The position numbers and the translations under genes are program-made. From Paramuribaculum sp. (GTDB lineage Bacteria > Bacteroidota > Bacteroidia > Bacteroidales > Muribaculaceae): 52,050 nt of DNA. Location of the stretch: assembly GCA_029052015.1 (NCBI GenBank), contig JAIDJW010000143.1, positions 1-52,050 on the forward strand. Direction: 5' to 3'. Below, in pieces: positions 2,203 to 48,296 of this stretch. A model generated the notes under the pieces. It did no database searches and had not been told where the DNA came from. It was given only the letters and a program-made list of their open reading frames with translations. The first letter of the stretch is position 1. The number at the start of each line of letters is the position of its first letter.

Positions 2203-3174
2203 TTATCTGGAGTCACGAAGCTGAGTCAGCTCGAATGTACCCGACATATTCTGGACTTCAATCTTGCCGCTGAGAATCTCAAAAAAGAAATCGCGTATGC
2301 GCTCCACGCTCAAAGTGGCAGGATTTCCCGATGCATCCGGACCTAAATCATACGTTTTCAGCAGTTGTGAGCCCAGACTCGCCGCTGTGAGCAGAAAATG
2401 ATTGTGAAACTTGTCTGTGTCGATAAGGTCTGCCGCGAGCACCTTGCCCACAACCGTGTAACAGCGCAGAGTACGGCGCACATCCTCTTCCGTCAGAGTC
2501 GACTTGACCTCGTCGGTATTGAAATCCATAGGTATTTTGCCGCTATCGGGGCTTTGTGGCAAACCGCGGTAGAGGGCGCCGAGATCGGCGAGCGAGAGAT
2601 TAAACATACGTGTGCCAGGAGTGGCGCTGAGTTTCTCTATCGAGAAGGCGCTGGGCAGCAGCAGATAGATGTCGCCCGCAATCCTTACTGCCGGGGCATT
2701 GAATGTACCTATGATAGAATTTGTCAGCTCTATATCCTGCGTGGCGAAAACTCCGCCGATAACAACGCAGTTTTCAAGTATCACCTCATCGGCATATATG
2801 CTGCCGGCAACAAAAGCGTTGACAAGCGTCACAGTCTTGCCATTAACATCGGAGTAGAATGTTGGACGACATCCGGCTGCGCGCGACACGATTGAGTTTG
2901 CCGAGCCCACGCTTTTGCGCATCTTTACCGAACCGGTGTTGTCTGAACTGACATACAACTCGGTCTGGGCGAAAACCGCCCCCTGGATATCAACATCGCC
3001 GGCACGCGCCTCGATGCGGTTGCCGAAAATCGGCCCCTCGACGATTGTGTCGCCGGTAAAGATGATATTGCGGTTGAGCTCCGCGATTTTTTCAGGGAGA
3101 ATTGATCCCCGGACAAGATTATCCTTTAATATGACATCGGTTTCGTTAAACCTTATTTCCTTTAATTCTTTCAT
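2203..3174 (-). CDS. bactofilin-like / polymer-forming beta-helix protein
   Basis: Repetitive short beta pattern (GDTIVEGPIFGNRIEARAGDVDIQGAVFAQTELYV...GSIYADEVILENCVVIGGVFATQDIEL) typical of right-handed beta-helix/bactofilin-like proteins; start at MKELKE preferred. Confidence 0.55.
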   Translation of the reverse strand: MKELKEIRFNETDVILKDNLVRGSILPEKIAELNRNIIFTGDTIVEGPIFGNRIEARAGDVDIQGAVFAQTELYVSSDNTGSVKMRKSVGSANSIVSRAAGCRPTFYSDVNGKTVTLVNAFVAGSIYADEVILENCVVIGGVFATQDIELTNSIIGTFNAPAVRIAGDIYLLLPSAFSIEKLSATPGTRMFNLSLADLGALYRGLPQSPDSGKIPMDFNTDEVKSTLTEEDVRRTLRCYTVVGKVLAADLIDTDKFHNHFLLTAASLGSQLLKTYDLGPDASGNPATLSVERIRDFFFEILSGKIEVQNMSGTFELTQLRDSR

Positions 3175-27703: not shown

Positions 27704-27736
27704 TATATATAGGTGTATTCCGGAATTGCCAAAATA

Positions 27737-27774
27737 AACAACAGGGCTGTCATCACGACAGCCCTGTTGTTTTT
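27737..27774 (+). terminator. rho-independent terminator downstream of DPP III
   Basis: AACAACAGGGCTGTC (27737-27751) - ATCAC - GACAGCCCTGTTGTT (27757-27771) followed by TTT. Confidence 0.88.
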
Positions 27775-27960
27775 AACCTTAAATCTAATACCATGAAAAA
27801 ACACAGTGCAAATATAGTAATTATACACTTACAACGCCGCTACACACAGACAGTTCGGAGGCAATCATATTATTAACATTTTTTAATGCAACGCTCTTAT
27901 CGCCGTTTTGTAACTTTACAGCGAAAAGAATATTCTTACAACATAACACCCTCATAGCTG

Positions 27961-40550: not shown

Positions 40551-41272
40551 CCGAACTGCTTCAGGACTTTCTCGGCTCGATAAATTCGCTTGAGGTCACC
40601 ACTGCATCTACTGCGTTCAAGCTCTTTCTGAGCATGCTGCTCGGTTGCTGCGTGGGAGTGGAGCGCAAGCGCAAGGGGCAGATTGCGGGCATACGCACAT
40701 TCGCACTCATCGCAATGGGCGCAACCCTCGCCATGCTCCTGTCAATCTATGTGCCGCAGGAATATCTGGGGCTTAAAAACGGGGATCCGGGACGTATCGC
40801 CGCCCAGGTTATAACCGGCATCGGCTTCCTCGGCGCCGGAGCCATCATACAGATGAAGGGGTCGGTGCGGGGACTCACCACCGCCGCAAGCATCTGGATG
40901 GTGGCCACCATCGGCATGGCTGTCGGCGTGGGCATGTATGTGGTATCGATTCTCGCGACTGCCCTGATTCTTGTGATACTGGTCATAATCGAAGCGATAG
41001 AGCGCAAGGTGCACGTCGGTCAGGAAACACGCATAGTGCGCATCCGCGTACACGGCATCGTCGAGGATATAGACTCCTACCGCAGAGTGCTTGATGCATT
41101 CAGGATTCATCTTGTCAACGTCTACGCCGAGTATGACTACGAGGCGGAGGTGACACGCCTCAACCTCGTTGTGCTCGTCAAGGATACTACCGATTTCATC
41201 GCCCTGTTCTCATCGCTGCGCAAGCTCAATGACACCGAGGGCATATCTCTCGCCAACCAGGTAAGTATATGA
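40547..41272 (+). CDS. MgtC/SapB family protein
   Basis: GCCVGVERKRKGQIAGIRTFALIAMGATLAML, GIGFLGAGAIIQ, VRGLTTAASIWMVATIGMAVG; ATGA overlap with previous gene. Confidence 0.92.
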   Translation: MTELLQDFLGSINSLEVTTASTAFKLFLSMLLGCCVGVERKRKGQIAGIRTFALIAMGATLAMLLSIYVPQEYLGLKNGDPGRIAAQVITGIGFLGAGAIIQMKGSVRGLTTAASIWMVATIGMAVGVGMYVVSILATALILVILVIIEAIERKVHVGQETRIVRIRVHGIVEDIDSYRRVLDAFRIHLVNVYAEYDYEAEVTRLNLVVLVKDTTDFIALFSSLRKLNDTEGISLANQVSI

Positions 41273-43509
41273 TACTCGCAGCAGTAGAGGCAGCGAATCT
41301 GCCGGTGGAAGGTCTGATAACGGACCTGGCGTTCATCCTAATCCTCGCGGCAATAACCACCGTGCTGTTCAAATGGATGAAGCAGCCGGTGGTGCTCGGC
41401 TACATTGTCGCCGGGTTTCTTGCAAGCCCCAACTTCACCTACCTGCCGTCCGTTACCACTCAGGAGAATATCGAATTCTGGGCGCAGATAGGCATAATTG
41501 TGCTGCTGTTTTCGCTCGGACTGGAGTTCAGCTTCAAGAAACTTGTCAATGCCGGCGGTTCGGCGGTCGTTACAGCCTTAATAATCGTGACCGGAATGAT
41601 GTGCGCGGGCTTTGCCATAGGTCATCTGCTCGGCTTCTCCAACATCAACAGCATGTTTCTCGGAGGAATGCTCTCCATGTCCTCCACCACCATCATCATC
41701 AAGGCATTCAATGACCTCGGTCTTCAGCACAAGAAGTTTGCTTCTCTGGTTTTCGCGGTGCTGATTGTCGAGGACCTCTTCGCGGTGCTGATGATGGTGA
41801 TACTCTCGTCCATCGCCATAAACAACAGCCTTGCCGGCGGCGAGATGCTCTACAGCGTCACAAAACTGGTGTTTTTCCTCGTGATGTGGTTTGCCGTAGG
41901 AGTGTTTGTGCTCCCCACCCTGCTAAACGCGTCGCGCCGGTTCCTCAATTCCGAAACTCTTCTGATAGTAGGCATGGGACTATGCCTGGGCATGGCGGTG
42001 TTTTCCGTCTACTGCGGATTCTCGCTCGCCCTCGGCGCATTCGTCATGGGGTCAATACTTGCAGGCACCAGCTTTGCCGAACGCATAGAGCGCGTTGTCA
42101 CCCCTGTAAAAGACCTATTTGGCTCGGTATTCTTCATATCAGTGGGCATGATGGTAAATCCGAGTGTGATTTCAGAGTATCTCACTCCTATCCTGATTCT
42201 CTCCGCGGTAGTTATCGTGGGGATGATACTTTTCGGCACCTTCGGCATGCTCGTCACCGGGCAGCCGCTCAAAGTTGCCATTGAAGCGGGATTTTCGCTC
42301 ACCCAGATTGGCGAATTCGCCTTCATCATCGCCACCCTCGGCATGAGCCTGGGAGTGCTCGACCCGACGATATATCCCATAGTCGTGGCAGTGTCGGTGC
42401 TCACCACCTTCACCACACCTTATTTTATACGCATGGCCGATCCGGTGTACGCCGGCATTGTGCGCATCCTCCCCAAGCGCCTGCACTTCCTCATCGACCG
42501 CTACACCGACAAGGCTTCCTCCGAGAGCGAAACCGGCATGCTGTGGAAGAGCGTCATCCACCGCTATATGTGGCGCGTGATGCTCTATGCGGTGATTCTC
42601 ATCACCATATCCATTATATCGGTAAAATGGCTACTGCCATGGCTCACCGGCTTCAGCCCATCATGGGGCAGGCTGATATGCTCCACTGTCACCCTACTGG
42701 CCATGGCTCCCTTCCTGCTCGCACTCTCCTATCCGGCATCAAAAAAGACAGAGCGCAAGCGCCTTCTTGCGGCAAACGCCCGCTTTGACGTGCCGCTGAT
42801 AGTAATGACCCTCTTCAGGATGCTGATAGCCCTGGTGTTTGTGATATATATTCTCACACGGATATATTCGGCATGGGTTGGCGCTGTGTTCGGCTTCGCG
42901 ATATTCGCTCTCCTTATGTTCGGACTGTCGAAAAGGCTAAAAAAGAGGATGCGCCGCATAGAGTCACGCTTTATCGACAATCTCAACGAGCGCGAGCTGC
43001 GACGGAGCGGACGCAACAACAATATCGTCAGCAATCTCCACCTCGCCTACATGACCGTGGGCTATGACTGCCCCTTTGTCGGCGAGCGCCTGCAGGACAG
43101 CGGACTCCGCACCCGGTTCGGCGTGAATATCGCAACGATACAGCGAGGCAACACCCTCATCCCCGTTCCTGCCGGCGAAACCCGCATCTTTCCCGGCGAT
43201 GTGCTCGGAGTGATCGGCACCGACGAGCAGATTCAGGCGATGCTGCCCATTGTTGAGAGCGCCGAGGAAGAGCAGAGCACAGCCACCGACGGCGGAGGCT
43301 ACAAGCTCACCACCGTGCAGCTCAGCGACACTTCGCCCCTTGTCGGCAAAAGCGTTGCGCAGTCGCGCCTCAGCACCGACTACAAGGCACTCCTTGTGAG
43401 CATCAACCGCGCCGACGAATTCTTCACCCCCAAAGCCGACACTGTCTTCAACTCCCACGACATCCTCTGGATAGTCGCCACCAAATCCACCCTCGCCGCC
43501 CTCCGCTAA
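41269..43509 (+). CDS. CPA2-family cation:proton antiporter with C-terminal TrkA-C-like domains
   Basis: 746 aa; about 12 TM helices, KQPVVLGYIVAGFLASPN, GLEFSFKKL, IVEDLFAVLMM; C-terminal RCK_C-like segments; ATGA overlap with MgtC gene. Confidence 0.9.
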   Translation: MILAAVEAANLPVEGLITDLAFILILAAITTVLFKWMKQPVVLGYIVAGFLASPNFTYLPSVTTQENIEFWAQIGIIVLLFSLGLEFSFKKLVNAGGSAVVTALIIVTGMMCAGFAIGHLLGFSNINSMFLGGMLSMSSTTIIIKAFNDLGLQHKKFASLVFAVLIVEDLFAVLMMVILSSIAINNSLAGGEMLYSVTKLVFFLVMWFAVGVFVLPTLLNASRRFLNSETLLIVGMGLCLGMAVFSVYCGFSLALGAFVMGSILAGTSFAERIERVVTPVKDLFGSVFFISVGMMVNPSVISEYLTPILILSAVVIVGMILFGTFGMLVTGQPLKVAIEAGFSLTQIGEFAFIIATLGMSLGVLDPTIYPIVVAVSVLTTFTTPYFIRMADPVYAGIVRILPKRLHFLIDRYTDKASSESETGMLWKSVIHRYMWRVMLYAVILITISIISVKWLLPWLTGFSPSWGRLICSTVTLLAMAPFLLALSYPASKKTERKRLLAANARFDVPLIVMTLFRMLIALVFVIYILTRIYSAWVGAVFGFAIFALLMFGLSKRLKKRMRRIESRFIDNLNERELRRSGRNNNIVSNLHLAYMTVGYDCPFVGERLQDSGLRTRFGVNIATIQRGNTLIPVPAGETRIFPGDVLGVIGTDEQIQAMLPIVESAEEEQSTATDGGGYKLTTVQLSDTSPLVGKSVAQSRLSTDYKALLVSINRADEFFTPKADTVFNSHDILWIVATKSTLAALR

Positions 43510-43534
43510 TCCCACCCGATAATTCATGCAATGA

Positions 43535-43566
43535 TTTGTATTTAAATGAGAAATAGACTACATTTG
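43535..43566 (+). promoter_or_regulatory. consensus Bacteroidetes promoter for the zinc-repeat/KAP/UDG-like cassette
   Basis: TTTG (43535-43538) - 20 nt - TACATTTG (43559-43566), 34 nt upstream of the first ATG. Confidence 0.8.
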
Positions 43567-43600
43567 TGATATTCTTAGTTTCTGAATTTGGAGAGAGCAA

Positions 43601-44038
43601 ATGGCTAACTACTATTGCAAATACTGTGGGGCGAAAGCAAGTTCAATTCTATCGTTGACAAACGGGACGTGTTCCCGGCACCCTAAGGGACGCAATCAGG
43701 GGATGCATGAGTTATATGAAGGAGTAGAGGATTCGGAATATATATGTAAGTATTGCGGAACTAAAGCAACATCTATATCGTCTTTGACTAACGGCACATG
43801 CAGAAAAAATCCATACGGCAACGGGGAAGGTCATCACGAACCTTTCATCGGCGGAATACGGAAAGAGTATGTATGTAAATATTGTGGTGATAAAGCTACG
43901 TCCATTCAGTCCCTCACTAACGGATTATGTCCCCATCATCCAACGGGTAGAGGCAAAGGAAGGCATGCACCGACTATTCTGCCTTGCTCTGACCCCAATC
44001 TTATAGATGACCTGTTCAAAAAAATATTCGGTTCTTAA
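43601..44038 (+). CDS. small protein made of three tandem zinc-finger-like repeats
   Basis: 145 aa; three repeats of Y-x-CKYCG-x-KA-[ST]-SI-x-SLTNG-x-C-...-H with conserved CX2CX14CX11H. Confidence 0.8.
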   Translation: MANYYCKYCGAKASSILSLTNGTCSRHPKGRNQGMHELYEGVEDSEYICKYCGTKATSISSLTNGTCRKNPYGNGEGHHEPFIGGIRKEYVCKYCGDKATSIQSLTNGLCPHHPTGRGKGRHAPTILPCSDPNLIDDLFKKIFGS

Positions 44039-44049
44039 AATAATCCCAA

Positions 44050-46026
44050 ATGGCAACTTCAATATCGGACCTCCCATATATAGATGAGGAATATGATTTA
44101 AAAACAGAGTATTATGTCAAGGGGCTGGAAGCATTTATCAGAAATGCGCAGACCCCGATGACTATTGCTCTGCAAGGAGAATGGGGAAGCGGAAAAACGT
44201 CATTGATGACCCGTCTTAACCGGGTCTTATGCCATGGTGAGAATTCTGATTTTATCGGAATTACAATCAACACCTGGGAATACTCCATGCTTGCGTCGCC
44301 GGAAGAAACCGTCTATAATATCCTCGGTAAGCTGGTAAAAGATGTAAGCAAAAACGACTCCAAAGCCAAAAATGTATTTAACCGTTTTCTTCGTGGTACC
44401 GGAAGATTCCTGTATCGAGGTGGTCGCGAACTCCTTAAAGCTGTTCCTGTTGCAGGGACAACACTTGGCTTTGCCATAGAGGCAATAAATGTACCCACAG
44501 AAAATCCGTATATCACCAATAAGGAAGAGGAAGCATCCCTATCGGAAGTAAGAGAGGCGTTGGAAACTGCCGTCAACAACCGGATAACCAAAGAGGCACA
44601 AAAGAAGGGAATTATAGTTTTTGTTGATGATCTGGATCGTCTGAATCCCCCTGTGGCTGTTGAGATTCTTGAGCTGTTCAAGAATGTATTTACCATTGAA
44701 AATTGTATCTTCATATTAGCTATTGACTATGAAGTTGTGGTAAAAGGACTTGAACCTAAATTCGGGAAACTTACAAATCAGAATGAGAGAGAGTTCCGCT
44801 CATTCTTCGACAAGATAATACAGGTACCGTTCTCACTCCCTGTAAATAGCTATCGACCTATTAGTTTTGTAGTGACATCATTGAACAAGATAGGGTATAT
44901 ACAAACAAAATTGACAGATGAACAACAAAACCTGTTTGAGGCTGTGGTCAAAGCATCAGTAGGTAACAATCCACGCTCTATAAAACGATTGATAAATACC
45001 CTCTCTCTACTTGATTGCATAGCCAAGGAACAAGTGATTAGCAATAATTCTGCCCATAATTATGGAACCGACATAAAATTAACCGGTGACAATCTCATAC
45101 TGGACAAATTGCTGAATTTCATAGTTGTCGCCATACAGATATGCTATTCTCGGATTTATTCGCTTTTGGTTAAGAAACCGAATTTCACCGAATGGAATCG
45201 AGAATTTGCATCCCGCGAAGGGATAGATGCGGCCATTGACGATGAGGATGCTGACTGGAAAGATATTCTTGAAGCGGCATGCACCGCCGACAAATATCTT
45301 AATCTGCGCCATCTTGATATCTTGAAGTTGTTTTCGATGATTATAGATATCGTCAGTCAGAGCGGTGGCAATATCAATGAAAATATCAATGCAAGACTAA
45401 AGGATATTCTTGACAAAGCAGCCGTGACAGGAGTGAGCGCCAATGTAAAAGTGGCAGATTTTGACAAAAAGGCGTTCATTCAGAAACTTTATGATAATGT
45501 TGGCAGACGCATTCGGCAGCTTCGCCCTGACATAGAAGACATTAAAGTCAAGAACAATACCGGCAACGGCGGATTTAAATTCAGGGATGAGAATAACCGT
45601 GGATATGACATCCGATTCATTCCATCGTATGAACCGGATAATACTGTGACTCTGACAATAGAAATGAGCACGAAAATAACACGCTCGGAGGATATGCTCA
45701 ATAAGGCGTTGGATGACCTGCTGGAGAATAATCAGTTGACAAACGCCTTGTCAGAGCTCGATGCAAAAATATCTCCATTGCTGCAGAAACTGTCCTTTTT
45801 CGAAAGTAAACACTCCAATGACGATTTGTGGTTTACCTCTTACTCGGAAGAATTGCGTTATATGCACGAGAAAGGCTTTATGTCAGGCGATGTCACACAC
45901 GATGCCGTGTATAGGCTTAAGTTGCAGAAAGCATCGGATTTCGAAGACGGTAGAGTTGTTGATGCTATTGCTGATGTCGTTATTGCAAATTATGATTTTA
46001 GAAAAACGATGTCAACATACAGATAA
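44050..46026 (+). CDS. KAP family P-loop NTPase
   Basis: 658 aa; Walker A GEWGSGKTS, Walker B GIIVFVDDLDRLNPPVAVEILELFKNVF, FILAIDYEVVVKGLEPKFG, GNNPRSIKRLINTL sensor region. Confidence 0.9.
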   Translation: MATSISDLPYIDEEYDLKTEYYVKGLEAFIRNAQTPMTIALQGEWGSGKTSLMTRLNRVLCHGENSDFIGITINTWEYSMLASPEETVYNILGKLVKDVSKNDSKAKNVFNRFLRGTGRFLYRGGRELLKAVPVAGTTLGFAIEAINVPTENPYITNKEEEASLSEVREALETAVNNRITKEAQKKGIIVFVDDLDRLNPPVAVEILELFKNVFTIENCIFILAIDYEVVVKGLEPKFGKLTNQNEREFRSFFDKIIQVPFSLPVNSYRPISFVVTSLNKIGYIQTKLTDEQQNLFEAVVKASVGNNPRSIKRLINTLSLLDCIAKEQVISNNSAHNYGTDIKLTGDNLILDKLLNFIVVAIQICYSRIYSLLVKKPNFTEWNREFASREGIDAAIDDEDADWKDILEAACTADKYLNLRHLDILKLFSMIIDIVSQSGGNINENINARLKDILDKAAVTGVSANVKVADFDKKAFIQKLYDNVGRRIRQLRPDIEDIKVKNNTGNGGFKFRDENNRGYDIRFIPSYEPDNTVTLTIEMSTKITRSEDMLNKALDDLLENNQLTNALSELDAKISPLLQKLSFFESKHSNDDLWFTSYSEELRYMHEKGFMSGDVTHDAVYRLKLQKASDFEDGRVVDAIADVVIANYDFRKTMSTYR

Positions 46027-46092
46027 AAAGCATCTGTTTCGGGAAATGAGACAGCACGCAGTTAATTTTGCTGCTACAAGTACTGCGACATT

Positions 46093-46947
46093 ATGAAAGA
46101 TATAAAGTACAATCCTATTGAAGAGAGAACGCTCAACGACAGACTGGTAAATCTTTATGGTCCAAAAATTCCGGGGCTCTATTCAGCCGTCAAGCCATTG
46201 TTTGATGACCCGGAAGCAATCAAACCGGCGTTGCCGCTCCTGATTGAGCTCAACGATAATGAGGCGTATGAGAACGCCGATTTACACGTAATGGTCTTCG
46301 GCAGGGAAACCAATAACTGGAATGACACCGATGAAAGAGGTGATTGTCCTTATGGCACATACAATTTCAACCTTTCAACTTCAGATGATATCCTGAACGA
46401 AATAAGGGGAAAGCATATCGATGGAGAAGCGGAAATCTACGGACTTGGAGATATTTACCACGCATATTGTTATGAAGACAATGGTGTTGGAAAAACAATT
46501 TTTACGCGAAGACAAAATCAACTGATACAGCAACTCAGGGAGCGTCTTGGCAACTGCAAGGTTGAAGCTGTCTGGAACAACATTTCAAAAATAGGGTGCG
46601 GAGGCACCGACTTCGGTAATAGTTGTCGCAAACCTACAGCTGAGATTCGTAATATCGAACGGGAGTATTTCAACATTGTTGCCGCTGAGGTTGAAATTCT
46701 TCGACCGGACATCATCGTATTCCTTACAGGTTTTTATGCCGATGACGAAATCAAATACAAATTCTGTCTCTCTGATAATGATTTCCAGCCGGTTAAGAAG
46801 GGCATCTTTCTTGACAGAGTAAAAATACCGGGAGTGAGATATGCCGCACGCACAATTCATCCTTCGCGCCAGAGCAAAGAGAATCTGAAGCTCCACTTTG
46901 ATGCTTTGATTGATGATATTGTAGGTGCAATAAGCATTCCACAATAG
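46093..46947 (+). CDS. hypothetical protein with UDG-superfamily-like motifs
   Basis: 284 aa; HVMVFGRETNNW (motif 1-like), EAVWNNISKIG, ILRPDIIVFLTG, TIHPSRQS (HPS motif 2-like), in the order seen in uracil-DNA glycosylase superfamily folds. Confidence 0.55.
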   Translation: MKDIKYNPIEERTLNDRLVNLYGPKIPGLYSAVKPLFDDPEAIKPALPLLIELNDNEAYENADLHVMVFGRETNNWNDTDERGDCPYGTYNFNLSTSDDILNEIRGKHIDGEAEIYGLGDIYHAYCYEDNGVGKTIFTRRQNQLIQQLRERLGNCKVEAVWNNISKIGCGGTDFGNSCRKPTAEIRNIEREYFNIVAAEVEILRPDIIVFLTGFYADDEIKYKFCLSDNDFQPVKKGIFLDRVKIPGVRYAARTIHPSRQSKENLKLHFDALIDDIVGAISIPQ

Positions 46948-47099
46948 CATCTGAATATGCGGCAGTGTCTTCAGATATAGCCGCTACAATTAGTGCGCCA
47001 AAGGCGTGTCGATTATCCAAAACCCTATATGTTGCCCATCATGTCAAGTGCTTTTTATCGCTGCGGAGCAGTGGGCACCCTTGCGGGAATTTTTCTCAC

Positions 47100-47219
47100 G
47101 ACCCCAAGGGGTCTTTTTCAAGAGTTAGCGCTTTTATCACGTAGTCTCGCTGACGCTCCACTACGCGCTATTGTCTCGCCACCTCTGACGAGGTGTAAGC
47201 GCCTCACTTATTTGAGGCG
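47100..47219. repeat. cluster of inverted repeats between cassette and beta-propeller gene
   Basis: GACCC-CAAG-GGGTC+T5 (47100-47118); TAGCG..CGTAGT/ACTACG CGCTA (47126-47170); CACCTC-TGAC-GAGGTG (47180-47195); CGCCTCA/TGAGGCG (47200-47219). Confidence 0.6.
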
Positions 47220-48296
47220 GAGCTCGAGGAGAATGGGGTTGATGTCGTCGGTTCCGGTGCCGGCGCCGAGCTGGGCTTCGTCAATGCCGCAATAGATGCA
47301 GTCGCCTGACGAGTATTGGGCGGGAAGGGCGTAATATGTCTGGCCATCAATAACGACGGGGAATCCGGGGGATTCTTCGCCGCGGGAGGTGCGCGAGAGA
47401 AGGAGCTTGCCGCTGCGGTCGTAGATCTGGACGGTTATCGCGCCCTTGCAGTTGTATGCGACGAATACGTAATCATCGACCACGAAGCTGTCGTAGCGTA
47501 TATAGTTTTTCGCATTGGCGTACATCTCCTCAAAGCTGGTGAAGCGTGGCGATGCGTAGCTGCCGAGAGTGAAAGCGACTTCGGGATGAAGGCCGCCGCG
47601 GTCGATGGAGTATAATGTGTCGTTATTCTCTATGAAAAGGCGGTTGTCGCTATAGGTGAGCTCGCGTGACATCCACACGGGGCCTTCCTCTGACGGCAGG
47701 GTTTCGTAGACAAACGGCGTGGTGAGCGTGTCAGTAAGCTGCCATGCGGAGTCGTAGAAGTATATCTTCATATTGTTGCCCTCGGCAAATTCCGACACTC
47801 CCGCCCATCCGGTGCCGTAAGGGTATATGGCGCCGCAAAGGGTGTCGGTGCGCTCCATAGTGCAGTTGCCGTAAAGGTCGTAGGCGAGGATACGGTTGCC
47901 GCCGACATTGTTCTCAACAACCCATCCCTTGCCGTCAGGTGTCGGCCACTGATAGTGAATCATGCGGTATTCGCCGGGGCCGTTGCCTTTTTTATTGAAG
48001 GACGAGATGCATTTGCCGGTGCTCTTGTCGAAGGTCATTAGGGTTTCGTTTTCCTCGATAAAAATCGTGTTGCCGATGACACCGCGCAGATTCATCATTG
48101 TGGAAAGCATGGATGAGTCGGTGAATTCCGGACGGATAACGGTTTTTATCTCAAAAACATCCCCGGGATTGCCGTAACTGTCCTTGTCGACATTGGCAGC
48201 AAGGTCTATGACGGGCAAACCAGAGCAGCCATCACGAGTGCCGGAGCAGGAGGAGAGAAGGAGAACGGTTGCAAAAAGGGCGATAGACTGTTTCAT
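47208..48296 (-). CDS. 6-bladed beta-propeller-like lipoprotein
   Basis: 362 aa; lipobox LSSC; 'FDKSTGKCISSFNKKGNGPGEY' as in Bacteroidetes 6-bladed beta-propeller lipoproteins. Confidence 0.75.
   Translation of the reverse strand: MKQSIALFATVLLLSSCSGTRDGCSGLPVIDLAANVDKDSYGNPGDVFEIKTVIRPEFTDSSMLSTMMNLRGVIGNTIFIEENETLMTFDKSTGKCISSFNKKGNGPGEYRMIHYQWPTPDGKGWVVENNVGGNRILAYDLYGNCTMERTDTLCGAIYPYGTGWAGVSEFAEGNNMKIYFYDSAWQLTDTLTTPFVYETLPSEEGPVWMSRELTYSDNRLFIENNDTLYSIDRGGLHPEVAFTLGSYASPRFTSFEEMYANAKNYIRYDSFVVDDYVFVAYNCKGAITVQIYDRSGKLLLSRTSRGEESPGFPVVIDGQTYYALPAQYSSGDCIYCGIDEAQLGAGTGTDDINPILLELRLK

Follow-up and report, generated by a model that had tools for sequence, protein, structure and literature searches.

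Which function is encoded by three closely spaced genes that are flanked by genes for a CPA2 antiporter and a convergently transcribed lipoprotein in a 2.35-Mb genome (87% complete) of the family Muribaculaceae? The window analyzed here is the whole 52,050-nucleotide stretch of contig 50 of that genome, and a first-pass annotation had described the genes as a candidate defense-like cassette with its own promoter. Three plus-strand open reading frames span positions 43601 to 46947, separated by spacers of 11 and 66 nt, and encode a zinc-repeat protein (43601 to 44038, 145 amino acids), a KAP-family P-loop NTPase (44050 to 46026, 658 amino acids), and a protein with a predicted uracil-DNA glycosylase (UDG) fold (46093 to 46947, 284 amino acids). 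The CPA2 gene (41269 to 43509) is the left neighbor of the cassette, and the lipoprotein gene (47208 to 48296) is the right neighbor. Bacteroidetes promoters follow the pattern of a −33 TTTG and a −7 TAnnTTTG, and one of this type, read directly from the sequence, lies on the plus strand at 43535 to 43566, with TTTG at 43535 to 43538, a 20-nt spacer, and TAcaTTTG at 43559 to 43566; the description of a same-strand unit with its own promoter thus stands. A sigma-70 scan gave no match above chance, and the cassette promoter differs from the sigma-70 consensus. A candidate intrinsic terminator (GACCCCAAGGGGTC-TTTTT, plus strand) is located at 47100 to 47118, although sites of this kind are about as numerous as expected from shuffled sequence. 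The cassette had also been called AT-richer than its flanks, and the composition agrees: the GC minimum of the window falls at 44 to 47 kb (0.40 to 0.43 per kb; next lowest, 0.46), and GC3 is 0.40, 0.42, and 0.44 in the cassette genes versus 0.50 to 0.72 in all remaining genes of the window.

The 658-amino-acid protein is a KAP NTPase (Pfam PF07693, 1.1e-39, 137 bits against a cut-off of 20; residues 26 to 320 align to profile positions 8 to 288 of 293) with Walker A (GEWGSGKTS) and Walker B (DDLDR) motifs. PADLOC profiles for PifA (5e-28), QatA (1e-21), and PDC-S20 matched mainly the ATPase domain. The kinship to PifA that had been proposed holds for this domain and not beyond it: the match covers only residues 35 to 320 of the window protein and positions 39 to 315 of the 720-position profile, with no full-length similarity, and PifA has no known UDG or zinc partner, unlike the window KAP. 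The cassette resembles QatABCD in having a KAP NTPase as the large gene of a multigene operon, but the window protein scores 83.8 bits against the QatA cut-off of 600, no QatB, QatC, or QatD is encoded in the window, and the neighbors are the zinc-repeat and UDG-like genes instead. Full-length relatives are 42 to 58% identical to the window KAP. Strong relatives number roughly a dozen in 198 family genomes, and several of the KAP genes stand alone; in phage and plasmid collections, only distant KAP domains were found, in phage records.

The 284-amino-acid protein scored 14.2 bits against the Pfam UDG profile, under the gathering cut-off of 24.3. A profile search of alignment A4 against PDB sequences returned nothing credible (best E value of 0.074, "Syn-F4-Link"), and the UDG assignment therefore rests on fold and motifs. 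A search of Bacteroidales with alignment A3 gave distant relatives only, PADLOC-DB contained no match for this protein, and no relative was found in the phage and plasmid collections. While a single-sequence AlphaFold model was discarded (pLDDT of 37), an alignment-based AF2 model (20 aligned sequences) reached a pLDDT of 88.6 and a pTM of 0.89. When this model was compared with the PDB using Foldseek, 50 of 50 among the matches listed belonged to the UDG superfamily; at least 35 matches had E values of ≤0.001, all of them UDG-superfamily structures, with probabilities of 0.99 to 1.00 and TM-scores to the target of 0.37 to 0.54. UdgX was the best match (1.8e-5), and the Thermotoga maritima UDG (a family 4 UDG), SMUG1, and TDG were also matched. 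The predicted structure indicates that the UDG-superfamily fold is real, in line with the DNA glycosylase fold suggested at first reading. GRE.NNWN, WNN, and HPS are invariant across the ten closest sequences (alignment A3). Specifically, G70-R71-E72 (motif 1, GxD/E) and H256-P257-S258 (motif 2, HPS) are invariant in 10 close relatives; over 20 relatives, G70 and P257 are invariant and E72 and H256 nearly so. This pattern is consistent with retention of the catalytic carboxylate and histidine (Glu72/His256, assigned by motif position only). Elsewhere, an 892-amino-acid protein (L176:6173-8851) carries a relative of the window protein as its N-terminal ~250 amino acids, fused to a long further domain.

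The 145-amino-acid protein consists of three repeats of ~40 amino acids of the form C-x2-C...C-x3-H/N (YxCKYCGxKAxSxxSLTNGxC...), with Asn in place of His in repeat 2; Pfam returned weak zinc-ribbon matches only. Relatives occur in 9 of the 198 family genomes and are 54 to 59% identical where they adjoin a KAP gene. Since related repeats are also present in proteins with signal-peptide-like starts beside unrelated genes (G027 and G086), the repeat alone does not imply nucleic acid binding, and the role in binding nucleic acids, one of two first suggested for it, is unproven.

Comparison of congeneric strains showed this site to be without the cassette in three of them. In G074, 31 nt replace window positions 43515 to 48174 (blastn of the window against L186), so that the whole cassette is missing together with the 3′ portion of the lipoprotein gene, and the sigma/anti-sigma block shared with the window comes directly after CPA2. 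The right-hand junction in G074 falls inside the lipoprotein gene, which is truncated there; this "empty" site looks like a deletion, and a clean mobile-element insertion was rejected as unproven. In G504 and G501, neither the cassette nor the convergent lipoprotein gene was found at the CPA2 site. Conserved core genes had been proposed on both sides, which is correct for CPA2 (31 of 34 congeneric genomes) but not for the lipoprotein gene. Because these three strains lack the cassette at the site and most congeners carry other genes after CPA2, we conclude that it is accessory; it is also patchily distributed and foreign-looking. UDG-like relatives were detected in 9 of 198 sampled family genomes, and the window protein is 75% identical to its relative in G113, from another genus, versus 70% to that of congener G074, whose CPA2 counterpart is 84% identical. 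The cassette was probably transferred between genera, judging from these identities. Patchiness and incongruent identity suggest that the module is mobile, as postulated earlier; no recombinase or target-site duplication was seen at the cassette.

The three families do co-occur elsewhere. On contig 15 of G074 (L036:5648-9832), zinc-repeat, KAP, UDG-like, and WYL regulator genes lie as four adjacent genes, and L011 has the order KAP-lipoprotein-UDG-WYL. KAP-UDG pairing was seen in only three genomes; most relatives of the UDG-like gene have no KAP gene and lie beside WYL regulators or Sel1/TPR proteins, or, in G424, beside tubulin-like and GmrSD-like genes. Other operons join the zinc-repeat and KAP genes to a GmrSD-type gene (contig C168 of the same genome, G142, and G009) or the KAP gene to a GmrSD-type gene without the zinc repeat (G196 and G076). 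GmrSD_N profile scores in these sister operons range from 3e-18 to 8.5e-35, and no GmrSD_N or GmrSD_C domain was matched in the three window proteins. GmrSD_N genes thus occupy the effector slot behind sister KAP copies, whereas the window slot holds the UDG-fold protein. GmrSD type IV restriction enzymes act on modified DNA (PMC4619093). Since the sister operons pair the same core with GmrSD-type nucleases, the effector slot behind the KAP core appears exchangeable. The UDG-linked proteins did not group together among the 11 KAPs placed in a tree, and two label changes were needed; a single change sufficed in only 10% of bootstrap trees, the deciding branch was weakly supported, and the UDG-linked KAP of G074 fell near the GmrSD-linked KAP of G076 with weak support. 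An SMC-like effector behind the KAP gene in G073 was rejected as a candidate, as the gene resembles housekeeping recF. No known system combining zinc-repeat, KAP, and UDG proteins was found in PADLOC-DB or the open-licence papers searched, and none was found among these papers that pairs KAP with UDG or KAP with GmrSD; within these sources, the combination is as new as had been supposed. The cassette is a new combination of known families, plausibly with a role in defense.

Two further features of these neighborhoods were observed. In C168 (L042:4233-6390), a WYL gene, an ADP-ribosylglycohydrolase gene (Pfam, 3.2e-35), and an exonuclease-like gene just precede an RNA-zinc repeat-KAP-GmrSD unit; ADP-ribosylglycohydrolase genes have also been reported beside Brig1 and Brig3 (PMC11078745, PMC13160076). 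Small tubulin/FtsZ-like proteins recur beside UDG-like and WYL genes, one at L083:800-1279 (Pfam Tubulin, 4.9e-12) and others, with N-terminal resemblance only, at L012:9759-10451, L013:5756-6463, L037:10181-10864, and L181:4087-5283.

In seven KAP operons, the noncoding stretch before the first gene is ~80 to 90% identical, and the KAP proteins are mostly 40 to 58% identical to that of the window. A covariance model of this RNA, R1, found copies in 97 of the 198 genomes of Muribaculaceae, commonly several per genome, as well as in other Bacteroidales families; Rfam gave no match. Copies lie at L036:5418-5555 (plus strand), L042:6618-6755, L043:5746-5883, L083:552-690 and 2978-3120, and L173:7066-7193 (minus strand). 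At L173, from another family, the RNA is 73 nt upstream of a gene whose product is directly related to the UDG-like protein of the window. Among 63 distinct copies, changes on both sides were seen in 22 of the 27 pairs; such changes filled 363 cells versus 91 ± 11 in shuffles, and the covariation score was 0.568 versus ≤0.104 for slid structures, in an alignment that was fitted to the model and so leans towards it. A terminator-like hairpin lies 3′ of the RNA in G074, and the inverted repeat TTGCA-n5-TGCAA is often just upstream of R1 copies. An integron attC site was provisionally set aside as an explanation: the copies are mostly isolated, no recombinase was noticed nearby, and they often lie 70 to 120 nt before one start codon. 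R1 represents a structured RNA family of Muribaculaceae and other Bacteroidales that covaries strongly and is so far undescribed. No copy was detected in the window at an E value of ≤1, and R1 therefore bears on the cassette through its relatives only. Rfam did give a match in the window, at 27732 to 27804 on the minus strand (67.2 bits), to BTncRNA_FopS; this family comprises paralogous sRNAs of Bacteroidetes.

The genes downstream of R1 differ between short and long copies. KAP, GmrSD, PvuRts1I-type, or UDG-like genes were identified by profile within 2.6 kb downstream of 32 of 61 short copies (39 of 61 if two motif-only families count), a tally that is partly circular because several profiles were built from the same loci. 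None of 21 long copies (180 to 200 nt) had such genes, and many of these precede lipoprotein or secreted-protein genes. By profile comparison, support for kinship to UDG was 96% for L084, 86% for the L078 group, and 64% for the L124 group, in which L131 exceeds the Pfam UDG cut-off. The L100 group, included in the 32, showed weak kinship (30%); two further groups showed none (2% and 1%), and eight control families gave ≤0.25%. PvuRts1I-like SRA-domain modification-dependent endonucleases directly follow R1 in eight Muribaculaceae loci (L102:577-1434, minus strand; L106, L108, L109, L111, L112, L118, and L119), several of which also have two further small conserved genes.

On balance, we favor the interpretation that the cassette is an accessory anti-phage module in which a KAP-zinc repeat core serves a UDG-superfamily glycosylase effector directed against phage DNA. 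The defense-like reading of the first-pass annotation is preferred because restriction genes of the GmrSD type and a WYL regulator accompany sister KAP copies. The KAP NTPase would be the core, with the zinc-repeat protein as its physically interacting partner; together they would bind DNA or an infection structure, and the KAP protein QatA does bind single- and double-stranded DNA (PMC13279940). ATP would be spent on sensing infection or on loading the effector, which would most likely remove from phage DNA a modified (or uracil-like) base, leaving abasic sites that stop replication. In the sister operons, the same core would act with GmrSD-type nucleases, also against modified DNA. Precedent comes from the UDG-superfamily proteins Brig1 and Brig3, which defend by excising alpha-glucosyl-5hmC and 5hmC from phage DNA (PMC11078745, PMC13160076). 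The likeness, judged by fold and setting and not by sequence, is that of a UDG-superfamily protein in an accessory, defense-like context; the best structural match of Brig1 is likewise a family 4-like UDG, from Sulfolobus tokodaii (PMC11078745). Brig1 differs in that its homologues are reported mainly from Actinobacteria and that no KAP or WYL was found in the texts searched (PMC11078745, PMC13160076), and Brig3-BapA differs in that the window has no BapA.

The same layout of NTPase plus effector could instead reflect toxin-like abortive infection, with the KAP-zinc repeat sensor releasing the UDG-like protein to remove host bases so that the infected cell dies. Effectors are swapped under one NTPase here, as is common in abortive systems, but no antitoxin was seen, and members of this UDG family are also found where KAP is absent, which speaks against a need for KAP to keep the UDG-like protein silent; we regard this outcome as unlikely. 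The fold itself is that of repair enzymes, with UdgX, family 4 UDG, SMUG1, and TDG as its nearest structures, and would also suit an accessory DNA repair or stress module in which the UDG-like protein clears host DNA of damaged or deaminated bases, with KAP and the zinc-repeat protein as an accessory ATPase. We consider such a role likewise unlikely for a patchy, AT-rich cassette that was probably transferred between genera and whose sister operons combine GmrSD-type restriction nucleases with WYL regulators. To our knowledge, GmrSD-type nucleases have no role in repair. It is improbable that the cassette is a decaying remnant of an RNA-zinc repeat-KAP-UDG-WYL system, no longer regulated or functional after loss of its leader RNA and regulator, since, although the RNA and WYL gene of G074 are missing and zinc repeat 2 carries Asn in place of His, none of the three frames is broken, the residues invariant in A3 have been retained, and the promoter is clear. 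If the cassette is an anti-phage module, the copy in the window may be expressed constitutively or be a reduced form, as it has neither the WYL gene nor the RNA leader; a search of the window for a WYL remnant found none.

The simplest reading of the operons together is that a single KAP core is joined to one or another enzyme directed against modified phage DNA. More tentatively, they could belong to a modular Bacteroidales defense family with a KAP-zinc core and interchangeable UDG-type glycosylases or GmrSD nucleases, in which many copies are under R1 leader-RNA control and R1 additionally lies ahead of many stand-alone genes of the UDG-like or PvuRts1I restriction type. Base-excision immunity was described very recently (Brig1 in 2024 and Brig3 in 2026), with glycosylases acting alone or with a deglucosylase. 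If the proposed family is real, two unlike attacks on modified phage DNA, by glycosylase and by GmrSD nuclease, would share one ATPase core, and the role of KAP NTPases in defense would be testable through effector swaps. The R1 RNA family may also offer a handle for finding more genes against modified phages in gut Bacteroidales.
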